From NCBI GenBank assembly GCA_001599915.1, contig BCIG01000022.1, positions 310,001 through 374,000 on the forward strand: 64,000 nucleotides of DNA, in the 5' to 3' direction. The notes beneath the pieces were generated by a model that searched no databases, was not told where the DNA came from, and saw only the letters and a list, made by a program, of their open reading frames with translations. Below, piece by piece: positions 24,656 to 52,636 of this stretch; position 1 is the first letter of the stretch; every line of letters starts with the position of its first letter. Source of the stretch: Symbiotaphrina buchneri (lineage: Eukaryota > Ascomycota > Symbiotaphrinales > Symbiotaphrinaceae). A program made the translations under genes and the position numbers.

Positions 24656-25012
24656 CCAGGCTGCTCGCAAATTTTGGCGGCGGGATGATAGCTACATATT
24701 CCATCTCCTGGCCGACAATAAAGGTTGCCTGGACAATAACCCGCAGTGGCTCAGACTTGCCTTTACTACTTCATTGTGACAACTTCGATACGAGCTGGAA
24801 CCATGATCGCCTGACCGGTTACTCCAACTATACAGAAGGAGAAACTCGTGACGAGGCAGATGCCCAGTCTCCCGCTTTCTATACGAAGTGGAAACTCAGC
24901 AGTATCTGTGAGACTCGATTCAGACCACGGACCGTGATCAGAACGAGCCCCATCATCATAGCCACCCGCCTCTTGAATTTTGAGCTTTACCCAGCGCTCT
25001 TGACAGTGATGT
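24656..25012. other. Convergent 3' region
   Basis: Between the aldo-keto reductase and ASNSD1-like stops. Nothing recognisable. Confidence 0.5.
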
Positions 25013-27092
25013 TCACCGAAGGACAGTAGTGCCCTTGATTTTGCCGGTCTCCATCTTGGCCGTCCGCGCACCGAATTGTATCTGTAGTGCCACTCAGCTG
25101 TGCTCTTAGAAGGCTGAGCTTTAGTCATTGTACATACCGCGCGCTTCTTCTCCGCAGCCGTCCGAGGCAAGCCCAACTTCAGAGCCAGCAGTCTCAGAAG
25201 CCTTTTGCCAGGTTCCAAATGCGCTGCAGGGTCATTGTCCTGGGCGGTAGGTTGTACGCCGAAGCTGCACTTGAGCCACACCGGGCAAGCTAAGGCCCAA
25301 TCCAGAAATTGCTCATCAAGATAAGGGGACCTCACTTCCTTTCCCCAGTGGGACATGACCCGGTCATCTCGGCCCAGATTCCGCTTTCCTAACCGGCTCA
25401 CATCGAGATCCAGTTCGTCCAACAGGCCTTGGTAATCGCCCCTCCTGTACGCAGTAGCATGACGTGTGTAGCCTCCAAAAAGCTCATCGGCACCCAAGCC
25501 TGATAAAAGCACGCGTGCCGAAGATATGTAGCTCACCGGCTGTGAAGCATCAGGGCAGCGCACAGTGCCTGCGCCTCTGGCAGCAAAGTAGAATGCATAA
25601 GCGATCGAAAGATCCATCTCTGTATTATGAGGACGCATAATTGAGATGACCTGAGATCGGTGTGCTAGTGCTTCGCTGCGCGGAACGTCAATTTCTATCA
25701 GTCTCCAGTTACGACCAGGAGATACATGCTGGAGTTCCTGCAGCGCTGTGCGGGCGGTCAGTCGGTCGGGACATAAGTCAAACGGCGACTCTGAAATTGC
25801 TCCATCGGCAGCAAACATGGCTTCTGCTTCATGTGTATCAGCAAGATCTGACCGTTTAGCACCAGTAGCTCTCGCCGTCTGGCCATTTGAACGAGCATTG
25901 GCTGCGGCGACGACACGAGGATTCTCAAAAGCGACATTAAGAAGGTCAATGGTCTCTTCAGGCGGTAGCAATCTGTGCGTAAGCAGAGCGAGCAAAGTAC
26001 AATCTAGTCCTCCAGAGAATAGAATGGCAATTCTTGCCGCCCTGCCAGGCTTACTGGTATCCTTCGGAGAAGGTGGGTTGGGTACGTTAAGCACTCTAAG
26101 CTTCATAGATGCTTCCAAAGCTTCTTGAAGCTGCAGGACACTGGCACTATCGACACCCGGAAGCGCAGGCTCCTCAGAAGGCAGTTCCTTGTTCAATGGC
26201 GCATACTGTAATGTCTGGAAATTTGTTAGAGCACCCATGTGGCATTGAGATTGTTCGTGGAGCTTACCAGTACTGTGCGACAGGGTTCTCGACCTGCCGC
26301 ATCTGAGGGCAGGGTCCAAGGCACATGGAGCACTGCAGCGCTGCTTTCCCCGCCAAGTGATCGCAGTCCTGGTGCAGCAGGTGTACCCAAAGGAGCGACT
26401 TTCTTTAAATCGAGGCAGTAGATCCCATCGGCTTCGACCTCCATCCATAGTGCGTCCGGCGCACCATCGGAGACACTGGAAAGGATGAAATTGCCTGCGT
26501 CGTCTTTACAACTCAAGAGCGACCGCCTGCCCAAGCAATCTCGCCCATAGAAGAGCTTGTGATTGGGTGCGTCGTAGTAGACGAATGCAAAAGGACCAGA
26601 AATGCTTGAAATGACAGCGACACGTCCGAATGAATCTTCGGATGACACGGCGCGGCCATGGAATTCGCTCAGCTGTTGCTGACTGTCTCGAACAGCAGAG
26701 GTTGACCGATTGTCAGAAGGGGGTTGAGAATGAGAGGCATCGAGCAATAATTTAAACACTGTTTCTGCATCATTTCCAGATACAGGTGCACCGTCAATCT
26801 TCCAGGCCTCGCCATTCCAGCAGAGAACAGAATTGGACTTCCGGTCAACAAGAGGCTGAACAGTGACGCCATCACCTCGCAATGAAAGTACGCTTGCAGT
26901 AAAGGAAAGATAGAAGATATCCTTGTCAGCCTGTACATGAGCTGTACCACTGTTGTCTCGGTTCAGCGGAACGACTTCTACTGCTTCATGAGTCTCGACA
27001 CTGTCGGGCCCGCGATTCTGCAGGAGGCTAGCAACGGCTCCAGGAAGCGGACGGTTACATGTCCGGCTCAGGGAGAAGTAGATGCCGCACAT
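25013..27092 (-). CDS. Asparagine synthetase domain-containing protein (ASNSD1-like)
   Basis: Exons 27092-26268, 26214-25138 and 25081-25013; 656 residues. It begins MCGIYFS, so Cys2 of a class II glutamine amidotransferase domain is present, with LLQNRGPDS and WNGEAW following. The synthetase domain carries the ATP pyrophosphatase P-loop LFSGGLDCTLLALL, the DLSIAYAFYFA block, LLSGLGADELFGGY, and the C-terminal QFGARTAKMETGKIKGTTV formed across the last intron. This is the eukaryotic ASNSD1 (yeast YML096W) type, distinct from the true asparagine synthetase; its substrate is not established. A conserved single-copy housekeeping gene. Confidence 0.93.
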
Positions 27093-27608
27093 GCGTGCGG
27101 AATAGGCCTAAGTAGAAAGTGAAGTACTATTCAGGCAATATCAACATGTGGCTAACGTCCACGGACAAAAGATATTGAGAATAATGGACGGTTGAAATTG
27201 GTTTCCACCTAGGCGTGGTGGGTAAGGTAGATTGTCACAGCTTTAGGGTGGCTTGGCGGACAAGCGTTGAGCTGGAGCGCTGCGTGTTGTCGTCAGGGTC
27301 CAATCAATGCTCACTTTAGCGGCATCAACATAATCCATGCAAAGCCGCTTCATTATTCCCCGATCCCGCAATCCGCACAGGTATCTAATGGAAATGGCTC
27401 TCATTACATATCTCTACAGATAGGGACCTGCCTTTTACTTCTCTTAACCCGGTCCCAGGTATCATACATACCAAGCTAGCCCCGAGCGCCATATCATCAC
27501 GGACCCGCTCAACAATCTGTTTCCGCTCTGGGGACAAGTTTTGGCAATAAGAGGTCATCCGCCACCCTTCGCTGCTTCTAATTACCCATACTGGTATACT
27601 GGTGATAC
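27093..27608. promoter_or_regulatory. Divergent promoter ASNSD1-like / VPS9-CUE
   Basis: 516 bases between two divergent starts. GTAAGGTAG near 27224 resembles the intergenic motif family. No clear TATA box. Confidence 0.35.
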
Positions 27609-48304: not shown

Positions 48305-50720
48305 TTACCTGTGAAGCAGACGCCAGAGTCTGGAGCGAGCATTTGGACTAGTCATACCGGCCTCTCGACGTCGTCCAATCGCCGTCTGCTGCCGACCTGA
48401 CAACCTGGAAGGTTTTCCAACTCTGCGTTTATAAGCTGAAAGGATTTTGAGGTATACCAACCGAGTCTGCGGAGTCGGGTCAGATTGTTGCGACCTGCAG
48501 GAAGTTCTGCCAGTGGACACGGCGCTCCTGCGTGGGACTCCCGGCGGAAGAGCGGTCATCTCCCGGTTGCCCACAACCATGGTACAGGCCTCACCACGAG
48601 TCAAGGCAACAGTCATGCAATTGGAGCTTCTGACGAATCTAACAGGCGCTCTGGTTCCTCCAGTATTTACGAGGTCGAGGATAATGACATCAGCTTCGTC
48701 TCCTTGGCTGTCATCAACCGTCGTGACGTGTACATTGGCAAAGCGCCGAGGTTGCCAGGCGTTCAACACTTTGCGCAGTGTGGTAGCCGCTGCCCTGTAG
48801 TAGCAGAGGACGCATATCTCGGAACCTTGATAGTTTCCTTTCGAGAGCATATCCTCCAGCAGCAGACAAATTGCACCGATATGGTGCAAATCTACTTTGC
48901 TGTCACCACCACGTTGCTCTTTGCGTTCATGAAGGTCACAACGAAGCGGAAATAAAGGTAACGTCGTGCTGGGCGAATCTCGGTCAAAAATCTCAACTCA
49001 CGACAGTCGATGTCCTACTCAGGTGTCAGCAATGCTTTATACAGAGTCTAATGGAGCTGGCCGTTCATACACTCCAATACACCTGTCTCACTTCACCAGA
49101 TCCGGATACCCGTTGCACACAGATCTCCTTCAGGAGCTTATTATCGATCACGACACATTTCCACTTACTCTATGTTTCTTCAGCGAGGATCGGAATTATT
49201 GCAAGCAACTGGCTTCCTTCCACTGACAGAAGAATATCACCTTCCGGGAGCTCGGCGCGGGCAGCATCCCGTGCTGCAGTGATATCGGGCTGGGGAGCAG
49301 CTGCGCCAAATGGATATCTGGTCAGCCATCCCCTGTACCACAAGTGGGACTTTCTTGTGTTCGCCGGATTTTGTGTTGTCGGAGCGTCGGTCAAGGGACC
49401 TTCATAGAACTCCCTGTTAGGGAAGCGAGACCTATGAGGAGCCATCCGGTATTGCTGTATCAGTGCGATACATGGGGTCCCAAGTAATAGCAGACGCTCA
49501 AAAGGAGACATTGCACCTTGCTGGGCGAACTCACTGGAGCCAAGGGATGTGACCGTAGGGGGCAATTCGCGAGGGTCACCGACCAGCATTGCGTCTCCCA
49601 TACTATTGACCAGCGGCACGATCGTCTCCCCTTCGGTCGCTTGGCCCGTCTCATCCAAAGCCGTATGCTTGGACTTAAAGGAGTCGTGCGTCAACGCGTC
49701 TGTACCAGCGCCTATGCAAGTTCCCATCACGCACCATGCGCGCCTGAGGTAGAATCTCCTCGCTTTCATCCACGCATAGGCTTCGTCATTCCTGATCTTC
49801 CTTGCATGGTCGTCATCATCATCTGACGTCAAAAGACTTGACGTAGCATTCAGAGCCTTCCGAAGTTCACCAAGCATCTCACGTCTTCTCGAACACGGGT
49901 GATGTTCTGTTTCAACCGCACGTGACGGGCATCATATTCTTTCAGCGACCGGAGGATGTGGCACTTCAACGACAAGTCATCAACATCGCCGTCAGCGGTT
50001 GTTTCCAACCTCATATCGTAGTCCCGATGGAAAGCAGTCGTCAGCTTGGCAGAACTGTCTCTGGTATCTGGCAGCAACTACTTAGATCATTGGTTTGGCA
50101 TGGCTTAAGCTGGCCAGGGATTGCTTCTGAAATACCCCAGGCGGGCCGAAATATGCCACCTCTTTGATGACACGATCTGTGATTTGCTGTCTCACGCGGT
50201 CCGCGATGACATACACAGCGCAATTGCTAGCTGCGCCAACGAAGACAGTAAGTTTGGCATGCTTTATAATGACGATCGCTGCAAGTATCAGCAATGTTTT
50301 GCTTGTTCCCGGTGGTCCCCAAACCGATGATACAAGCCCTTTCTTAAGCAGAAAAGTTTGCGACCTGCATCTTGATCTGGGGTGGGGTTGATTCGACCAG
50401 AGACCAACCTCAGAGCAGCTCGTCCAGCTTTATCTAAGGAGATTGTCGGAGTTAGCCCTTGGATCTTAATTTTGCGCGTCCCTGTAGCAACATCCTTAAG
50501 TCTGAAATTCGTCGCAATTTTGCGAGACAAGACCCCATACATAAACCAGTTGATGGCTCTTATGAGAGGTCTGGTCGAGCTTCCTCTTGGGCCAAAGATG
50601 AACGTTCCAGTGCGCGTTCCTGTTGTAACTAGTCCTTGGAGGCCGCCGACTCTTAATGCATGTATGGGACTCCTGAGCCAACCCCGGAATCCCGAACCGT
50701 ATGCGGTACGAAGCTAGAGC
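48305..50720 (-). pseudogene. UPF1-like superfamily 1 helicase, broken
   Basis: Helicase motifs appear in order on the minus strand but in different frames: Walker A in VWGPPGTSKTLLIL (near 50296-50319), motif II as DETGQ (49655-49641), motif III LVGDPRELPPT, LIQQYRM, motif V HVTTVDDSQGDEADVII, and motif VI VALTRGEACTMVVGN. The N-terminal part (VTTGTRTGTFIFGPRGSSTR, SGRINPTPDQDAGRKL) leads into motif I with a one-base slip at about 50333-50345. Another slip lies near 49875-49882, and a stop follows SHAKPMI near 50082. No intron with proper sites explains these. It is a decayed or very divergent RNA/DNA helicase of the UPF1/NFX1-like group; a fungal accessory gene is likely. Confidence 0.65.
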
Positions 50721-50929
50721 TTTCCCACGGCAGCACTGCTCGGCTGGGGACATTTAGCTTCTGCAAAGACGTACCGAGCTCGCAAGCCAATCACGACGCT
50801 AGCGTGATACTCATCTAATTCTGCCACCTCACGATCAGGCATGAAAAATATGAGAACAAAACGACTTCTATGGATTAATAGAGTCAAATAACCGGCAAAT
50901 TGTCACAAAAACAAGGCACTGTGGCGGAG

Positions 50930-50981
50930 GTTAGATTCCCATTCAATAATCTCAAAAAATCACCACTAACTTGATGTTCAG
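50930..50981 (+). other. Intron-like insert 1 of the tRNA-Ser gene (D-loop)
   Basis: 52 nt: GTTAG start, ACTAAC branch-like box at 50965-50970, TTCAG end 11 bases later. Its removal restores the conserved GAGTGGTTA of type II tRNAs. Boundaries can slide by two bases because AG precedes both junctions. Confidence 0.75.
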
Positions 50982-51020
50982 TGGTTATCGCGTGAGACTA
51001 GAAATCTCATTCCTTCGGGA

Positions 51021-51075
51021 GTTAGTCATCCCTGGAACTCGGTCTTCGGTCAATCATCTAACCTAGCAACTTTAG
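51021..51075 (+). other. Intron-like insert 2 of the tRNA-Ser gene (variable arm)
   Basis: 55 nt: GTTAG start, TCTAAC branch-like box at 51057-51062, CTTTAG end. An earlier AG at 51065-51066 lies only four bases past the box. Ending at 51075 leaves GC before the T-stem, as in yeast tRNA-Ser. Confidence 0.75.
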
Positions 51076-51107
51076 GCACAGGTTCGAATCCTGTCAGTGT
51101 CGAATTC

Positions 51108-51149
51108 TTTTTTGTTTTTTTTCTGGCGTTTTTTTTGGCGCTTTTTTTT
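51108..51149 (+). terminator. RNA polymerase III terminator series
   Basis: Four T runs (T6 at 51108, T8 at 51115, T8 at 51129, T8 at 51142) within 50 bases of the tRNA 3' end, two of them separated by GGCG-type spacers. This supports active Pol III transcription of the interrupted tRNA gene. The remainder to 51406 shows no gene. Confidence 0.75.
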
Positions 51150-51406
51150 GGCTCTTTCTTTTTCCTCTTCAATTCACATCTTTTTTGAGAAGTAACCTAG
51201 TCTTTAGTTGTTACAATTTTATTGACCGTACCCCAGTAGAGCGAGTCGTTCCATCTGGACCACTGTAATTCCACTAAGCGCCTGCCGGAGGAGCGGACAT
51301 CACCTCCCAGCGCCGAATATCCATCGGGTATCTAAAAATGAGCATAGTCATTATTGCGAAAAGAAAATGACGAAAGCAGAGAGCCCAGCACTATCTAAGT
51401 ATACCC

Positions 51407-52636
51407 CTATGATGTGCGGCCACGAGAAGCATTGGCAGAAAGAAACCTCCGCGGTGTTCGCTCAGTAACAGAAATGTCGACTTCATTGTACCAGTCGACG
51501 AACGTGTTAGTACGCTTCGCAGTCTTGTCACCACTGCACTGTGGCCAGAACTCAAAGTCTTTTCCAAGCACGTCATGACCCGTGACGCAGACGCCGAAGC
51601 CGTCCGCAGGATCGGAAGGGCGAGAGTACAAAGCGAAACGTCGCGGATGCTTGCCTTGCACAATATCGTAGCGGACATTGACATGCAGAAGAGTCGTCAA
51701 GCCATACTTGTTGACGATGTGCTTCTTGATCTTGAACTCCATCAGATTCCCTTTGAAGTGAACACGCCCTCCGGAAACGACCAGCTTCACATGACCGCCG
51801 GCCTTTGCGTTTGTGCGCCTGATTTAGGAGCTGAGGTCTGCTTGCGCAAGCTGCGAACGGCGCTTGTGGTGCAGGTAGTATTCTCGAAGTTCCGTGTCAG
51901 CCGAAAACCTGAGCGCCTCAAAGGCCGTTATCGTGTACGGTGACCGGATGAGAGAGTCCAAGGGAAACAAGACGTTCAGACCGCGGCCTTGGAGCGTGGC
52001 ATTGTTGTGTGCCAAAGGTTGCAAGAAGCCAGGAAGCGTCGGCAGGGTTGAGAACAGGACGCAGCACCAGAGCTCGACAAGGCAGACATAATTCGTCGCC
52101 AGAGGGGCGTGTCGAAGCATCTCAGGAAACGTGGCGAGGGCCACGAAGCGTTGCTGCCGGTTAGCTCCGAAGCCAACTCTGTACAACGGAGAGGGATTCT
52201 TGGCTCGATGTGAACCAGAAGAGTGTTCTGATTTTCGCGCGTTGATTCCCTGCGTCACCCTTCTGCCAGGGCGGAATCGAGCCGATGAGCCGACATACAG
52301 TTTGAAGAACTCTGAGTCATGATCATCCGTGATGATGATCATGTAGACTCCAGGCGCGTTCTCGATGGGCTTGAACTCGGCATGAGCAAGGGATTGAACA
52401 TCCCATGGCGTTTCGTGCTTGAAGGTCTGGAGAGCCGACCATAAGCCGGCAAGGATCGTCGTCGCAATGTGGAAAGGTCCGGTCGACTCGATCCACTCAG
52501 ACCAGTGGTCCAGGGAAGCGCCAGCTACGGCGTGGAGGAAGGCCAGCAAGTGTTCTCTGATACTGTATCCAGTTAGTATCACGATCCGCATGAGATAAGA
52601 TAACTCAAGGTTAACTTACACTGCTTGTGGATCCAT
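51407..52636 (-). CDS. GIY-YIG-like domain protein with one in-frame stop
   Basis: Exon 1 52636-52620 (MDPQA-V), 57-nt intron with a full TACTAAC branch site, exon 2 52562-51407; 390 codons in one frame. The stretch APGVYMIIITDDHDSEFFKL then YVGSSARFRPGRR matches the GVY...YVG core of GIY-YIG proteins. A TAA at 51826-51824 interrupts the frame after QADLSS; beyond it the same frame runs 138 more codons (KLVVSGGRVHFKGNLMEFKI, FVDWYNEVDIS) and looks genuine. Thus either the product is the first 251 residues, or this is an early pseudogene. CAA to TAA is a C-to-T change at CpA, the type RIP makes in ascomycetes. Neighbours (broken helicase, interrupted tRNA) mark an accessory stretch. Function unknown. 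Confidence 0.6.

Follow-up and report, generated by a model that had tools for sequence, protein, structure and literature searches.

Two short, probably spliceosomal introns in a nuclear gene for tRNA-Ser(AGA) from a filamentous ascomycete

We analysed a gene for tRNA-Ser(AGA) in a 64-kb stretch of DNA (the window, meaning the whole stretch analysed), which a sequence-only reading had described as a split gene at positions 50915-51102 of the plus strand. These coordinates proved to be exact: once joined, three exons of 15, 39 and 27 nt make up a class II tRNA-Ser(AGA) of 81 nt in which all stems are completely paired, and the two inserts that separate them carry intron signals. Judged by these features, the locus is probably a tRNA-Ser(AGA) gene in the nuclear genome of a filamentous ascomycete, with two short U2-type spliceosomal introns. 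The signals favour this class, which had also been proposed before, over the other classes that we tested; the preference is clear in the case of insert 1 and weaker in that of insert 2. The kind of intron is a known one; its host, a tRNA gene, would be new.

Structure and detection of the split gene

All parts of the gene lie on the plus strand. Exon 1 (50915-50929, 15 nt) contains the 5' strand of the acceptor stem, U8 and the 5' strand of the D-stem up to G15. It is followed by insert 1 (50930-50981, 52 nt; GTTAGA...CTAAC...TTCAG), which interrupts the D-loop between positions 15 and 16. Exon 2 (50982-51020, 39 nt) supplies the remaining D arm, the anticodon arm with the anticodon AGA at 51000-51002, and the variable arm UCC-UUCG-GGA, at the foot of which insert 2 (51021-51075, 55 nt; GTTAGT...CTAAC...TTTAG) is found. 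Finally, exon 3 (51076-51102, 27 nt) comprises a G-C linker, the T arm, the 3' strand of the acceptor stem and the discriminator G.

The spliced 81-nt product is called tRNA-Ser(AGA) by ARAGORN. All 20 stem pairs are present (acceptor 7/7, D 3/3, anticodon 5/5, T 5/5). The 7-bp acceptor, class II variable arm, T-arm and discriminator G that had been claimed for the gene were all recovered in the spliced form, together with the other features of a class II tRNA-Ser, namely U8, A14, G18G19, the TTCRA loop, a long variable arm and G73. At minimum energy the product folds into a cloverleaf plus the UUCG-capped variable arm. This energy is unremarkable, with a z score of -1.08 and 21 of 200 shuffles equally stable. 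We also compared the product with yeast and human tRNA-Ser(AGA) and with a fission yeast tRNA-Ser, using reference sequences each of which is called tRNA-Ser by ARAGORN. Relative to these three tRNAs 7, 10 and 6 of the 20 pairs are changed on both sides and yet still pair, and none is broken, as expected if the structure has been kept by selection.

The gene is likely to be transcribed by RNA polymerase III (Pol III), judging from its promoter and terminator elements. The B box (GGTTCGAATCC, 51081-51091) is whole in the DNA. The A box (50922-50932) conforms to the consensus TGGCGGAGTGG once insert 1 has been spliced out but not before; its genomic version, which that insert breaks, reads TGGCGGAGGTT. 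Downstream of the discriminator there follow AATTC, T6, G and T8, of which T6-G-T8 (51108-51122) is a likely Pol III terminator. Directly 3' of the gene we noted a T-rich tandem repeat (51117-51162; 13-bp unit TTTTTTTTGGCGC, 3.6 copies).

Standard tools overlook the gene. ARAGORN and Rfam at its cut-offs report no tRNA in the 64-kb window, and ARAGORN still missed the gene in the whole window when introns of up to 300 nt were allowed. With introns disallowed, the unspliced gene and both versions that retain a single insert remained uncalled. A permissive Rfam scan of 50700-51300 recovered the T arm alone (15.7 bits, E 2.6); a SNORD79-like match on the opposite strand (18.3 bits, against a cut-off of 47) was taken to be due to chance. 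The failure of ARAGORN and Rfam to find the gene points to a blind spot.

A split-tRNA matcher, which was designed with the gene at 50915-51102 already known, gave one match in the window, the gene itself, on the plus strand and none on the minus strand. It gave none in two sets of shuffles (0/100 and 0/2400), the larger of which contained 75 chance pairs of acceptor plus T arm. Split patterns that recover the window's own gene had no match in viral contigs. The insert-1 split pattern had none in genome contigs, and the intact-tRNA patterns had none in viral contigs. These collections comprise viruses and prokaryotes, and all these results have little bearing on fungi.

Intron signals and insert boundaries

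In an allowed register both inserts begin with a GT donor and end with a YAG acceptor. The branch box CTRAY, sought 6-36 nt before the acceptor, is CTAAC in both cases (50966-50970 in insert 1 and 51058-51062 in insert 2), with the likely branch A at 50969 and 51061, that is 12 and 14 nt from the intron end. The GT start, CTAAC box and AG end attributed to the inserts by the earlier reading are therefore borne out. A purine precedes the branch box in insert 1 only. In shuffles drawn from the pooled inserts and scored in the allowed registers only, the relaxed set GT..CTRAY..YAG occurred 38 times (insert 1) and 37 times (insert 2) in 200000, and the strict CTAAC version 18 and 11 times. For insert 2 a fairer figure is obtained with the register left free in the variable region, where the strict set appeared in 311 of 100000 shuffles (about 1 in 320). 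Of the 3968000 intervals in the whole window that measure 45-75 nt, 115 have GT..CTAAC..YAG. The longer form GTTAG..CTAAC..YAG at such spacing is found in the two inserts and in the reverse-strand reading of insert 1, the latter because GTTAG and CTAAC are complementary. This exact complementarity of donor and branch box (50930-50934 with 50966-50970, and 51021-51025 with 51058-51062) means that each insert could fold its donor onto its branch box.

We then compared the inserts with six introns predicted in protein genes of the window, a set that leaves out the PPN1 and MFS candidates. The VIT1 intron was confirmed, since joining its flanks raised the domain match from 71 to 189 bits and extended it from 59 profile positions to 189. 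For the other five the support is that joining gives a continued frame. Candidates in the TyrRS and VPS9 genes were dropped because joining gave no extension of the frame. The six introns are 47-87 nt long, and their CTAAC or CTGAC boxes start 11-19 nt from the end. Both the lengths of the inserts (52 and 55 nt) and their distances from the start of the box to the end (16 and 18 nt) fall inside these ranges. The donor GTTAG, however, is used by none of the six, which counts against the spliceosomal reading. Moreover, the donors depart from GTRWGT, the consensus of a fungal U3 set, GTTAGA at two positions and GTTAGT at one. As far as the U3 study is excerpted here, 88 of 136 canonical U3 donors match GTRWGT and the other 48 deviate, nearly always at a single position (PMC5832005), so that the consensus is a preference rather than a strict rule.

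Two further observations concern the inserts. A hairpin can form at 50961-50985 (ACCACUAAC...GUUCAGUGGU), where insert 1 ends and exon 2 begins; it would span the branch box and the acceptor of insert 1 and could hide both. A shared, introner-like origin of the two inserts was considered and rejected, as 1800 of 5000 motif-keeping shuffles were at least as similar to each other, and 12-mers of either insert have no second occurrence in the window.

How well the tRNA itself fixes the boundaries differs between the inserts. Three registers of insert 1 and two of insert 2 yield an identical product, and both GT-AG readings leave the cloverleaf unbroken. When registers of insert 1 were ranked by an alignment to tRNA-Ser that is blind to splice signals, with insert 2 removed as GT-AG, the GT-AG register was the single best of 1207; its product contains GAGTGGTTA, which is also present in all three reference tRNAs. 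In the analogous ranking for insert 2, with insert 1 removed, the GT-AG register was among seven tied registers of 1533, with two above them. The energy of the variable arm was rejected as a judge of the insert-2 boundary, because it places the GT-AG register 43rd of 133, of which only two have GT..AG. ARAGORN was rejected as well, since it accepted 634 of 737 alternative products. The tRNA therefore does not fix insert 2. Its junction is placed by the splice signals, by the anticodon stem, which this reading leaves unbroken, and by the GC linker of two bases after the insert, which the reference tRNA-Ser sequences have in common.

Alternative explanations

The main rival to the spliceosomal reading, and an unlikely one in our judgement, is that the copy is dead. 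It would once have been a tRNA-Ser gene, would have received two intron-like inserts and would have fallen out of use, its function being served by other, intact AGA genes. The broken A box would fit such a history. Genes for tRNA-Ser(AGA) are usually multi-copy in fungi, so that the loss of one copy would be tolerable. Against decay stand the exons, in which no base disrupts any of the 20 stem pairs, the intact B box and T runs, and the donor, branch box and acceptor that are kept in both inserts; a dead copy of recent origin, however, would look the same as this locus. That the inserts are two chance insertions merely resembling introns is scarcely credible. The weak donors would suit such an origin, but the strict signals are as rare in the fixed-register shuffles, and for insert 2 in the free-register ones, as given above.

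A different division of labour has been considered for insert 2. Here insert 1 would be spliceosomal, and in place of insert 2 a canonical 52-nt intron at 37/38 (51004-51055) would be cut by the SEN endonuclease, leaving an 84-nt tRNA-Ser(AGA) with another variable arm, CCUAG/UUAGG. SEN cleavage at 37/38 is a known pathway, and ARAGORN proposes exactly this intron, within a tRNA-Ser(AGA), when it is given the gene minus insert 1 and may include introns. Such calls on versions with a single insert are, however, of little weight. With insert 1 kept instead, ARAGORN reports a tRNA-Leu(GAG) with a 45-nt intron, and when insert 2 was shuffled, 1999 of 2000 versions received some call of a tRNA with an intron, 1217 of them still as tRNA-Ser(AGA). 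Likewise, the 4 of 5 anticodon-stem pairs that the 84-nt product retains are reached or exceeded in 15158 of 20000 shuffles. This product lacks a full anticodon stem, having a G.A mismatch there, and it folds less stably (-21.4 versus -25.8 kcal/mol) and aligns less well to the reference tRNA-Ser sequences (26.33 versus 30.67) than the product of the GT-AG junctions. Moreover, its base 32 is unable to pair with base -3 of the intron, a pairing that SEN needs. We regard the 37/38 intron as a minor and improbable rival that concerns insert 2; insert 1, which does not lie at 37/38, is unaffected by it. With both inserts removed as spliceosomal introns the anticodon loop is intact.

The two remaining alternatives invoke other splicing systems. 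It is very improbable that the inserts are ectopic introns cut by the tRNA endonuclease, like those of Cyanidioschyzon, which form a bulge-helix-bulge (BHB), or those of the Guillardia nucleomorph, many of which have no clear BHB. Sites outside 37/38 and two inserts per gene are known in those systems, and insert 1, if its register is shifted in one particular way, reaches 4 of 4 central-helix pairs, of which three are G-U. A BHB has a 4-bp central helix and 3-nt bulges; scored by the central helix only, the GT-AG registers have 0 of 4 pairs (insert 1) and 2 of 4 (insert 2), and no register of insert 2 exceeds 3 of 4. An endonuclease would also leave the GT..CTAAC..AG of both inserts unexplained. 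Equally hard to credit as two chance insertions are minimal group I-like introns. The inserts are close in size to the small group I-like introns of 63-75 nt that the cited part of one report describes in Phialophora rRNA (PMC3160393), but each of the five registers has G or A where group I introns have a U, just before the 5' site.

Precedents, possible processing and neighbouring genes

Spliceosomal introns in other non-coding RNAs offer precedents for the reading that we prefer. The two that had been named together with the claim, the U6 gene of fission yeast and the rRNA genes of lichens, are both in print (PMC10484740, PMC8527467, as far as these are excerpted here). In fission yeast U6, as proposed for the tRNA gene, an mRNA-type intron sits in a transcript made by Pol III (cited in PMC10484740); U6 is itself spliceosomal, however, and its intron is thought to stem from reverse splicing, a link that a tRNA does not have. 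The passages from the lichen study describe ectopic spliceosomal introns in another essential structured RNA, rRNA rather than tRNA, one of them of 57 bp, which yeast removed from Pol I transcripts (PMC8527467). A closer precedent is the introns of fungal U3 snoRNA genes, which are reported, in the text used here, for the vast majority of the Pezizomycotina analysed (PMC5832005). Like the tRNA gene, the U3 genes encode a small structured RNA and have canonical GT-AG ends, a CTRAC-type branch box and a short distance from branch to acceptor; four of them have two introns without recognizable mutual homology (same excerpts of PMC5832005). The hosts differ in that U3 is a snoRNA that bears a cap and is driven by an external promoter, whereas the promoter of the tRNA gene is internal.

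Among introns of tRNA genes proper, the canonical eukaryotic ones share the host but lie at 37/38 and are cut by SEN, whereas insert 1 is in the D-loop. The tRNA genes of Cyanidioschyzon merolae and of the Guillardia theta nucleomorph are, as here, interrupted outside 37/38, some of them repeatedly. According to the portion of the source drawn on, those introns are BHB-mediated and cut by a tRNA endonuclease, a defined BHB being absent from many of those in Guillardia, and a GT-CTAAC-AG pattern is not described for them there (PMC3978253). The earlier reading knew of no described case. In agreement with this, no spliceosomal tRNA intron appeared among the entries listed from the open PMC library; this search covers neither most subscription papers nor any preprints, so that priority is unproven. 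The excerpted parts of PMC6652019, PMC11782384 and PMC6945747 make no mention of one.

From these sequence features the following course of events may be proposed. Pol III, relying on the whole B box, the T-run terminator and a weakened A box, would produce a precursor of about 200 nt. The acceptor and T stems can pair already in this unspliced RNA, so that trimming of the ends ahead of splicing is possible. The spliceosome would then excise both introns, and the 81-nt product would be trimmed, receive CCA and be charged with serine. In this scheme the roles of Pol III and of the spliceosome, the order of the steps and the use of the product in translation are all predictions from the sequence.

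If true, this would join two systems, since introns of mRNAs and of tRNAs are treated as separate, each with its own machinery. It would also imply that the spliceosome copes with a very short Pol III transcript whose first exon measures 15 nt, and it would bear on the spread of introns into non-coding genes. More tentatively, and with somewhat less than an even chance in our view, some fungi might produce part of their tRNA set by means of the mRNA spliceosome, introns having entered sites in tRNAs that the usual endonuclease does not serve. Serine decoding would then need pre-mRNA splicing, and there would be an overlooked class of genes. Such genes would be overlooked because eukaryotic tRNA finders do not look for them; for tRNAscan-SE 2.0, the excerpted description gives a search for noncanonical introns for candidates of the archaeal model (PMC8450103).

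The gene is flanked by minus-strand reading frames. On one side there is a helicase-like region (49170-49931; AAA_11/AAA_12), part of a group of minus-strand frames at 48305-49931 upstream of the tRNA gene, and on the other a frame at 51824-52615 without a Pfam match. Elsewhere in the window we found frames for the Mediator subunit Rox3 (PF08633, 8.2e-62), for ERCC1/Rad10 and for a VIT family transporter. In a search of solved structures the ERCC1 frame matches ERCC-1 chains. The window also encodes a mitochondrial tyrosyl-tRNA synthetase, whose best matches are 2ktl and 5ijx/5ihx, which we take to be Aspergillus and Coccidioides proteins. By its gene content the window seems to come from a filamentous ascomycete, probably a Pezizomycotina-like one. 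Finally, a minus-strand gene at 24766-27107 combines glutamine amidotransferase and asparagine synthase domains and has one predicted intron of 53 nt; it is presumably ASNSD1-like.
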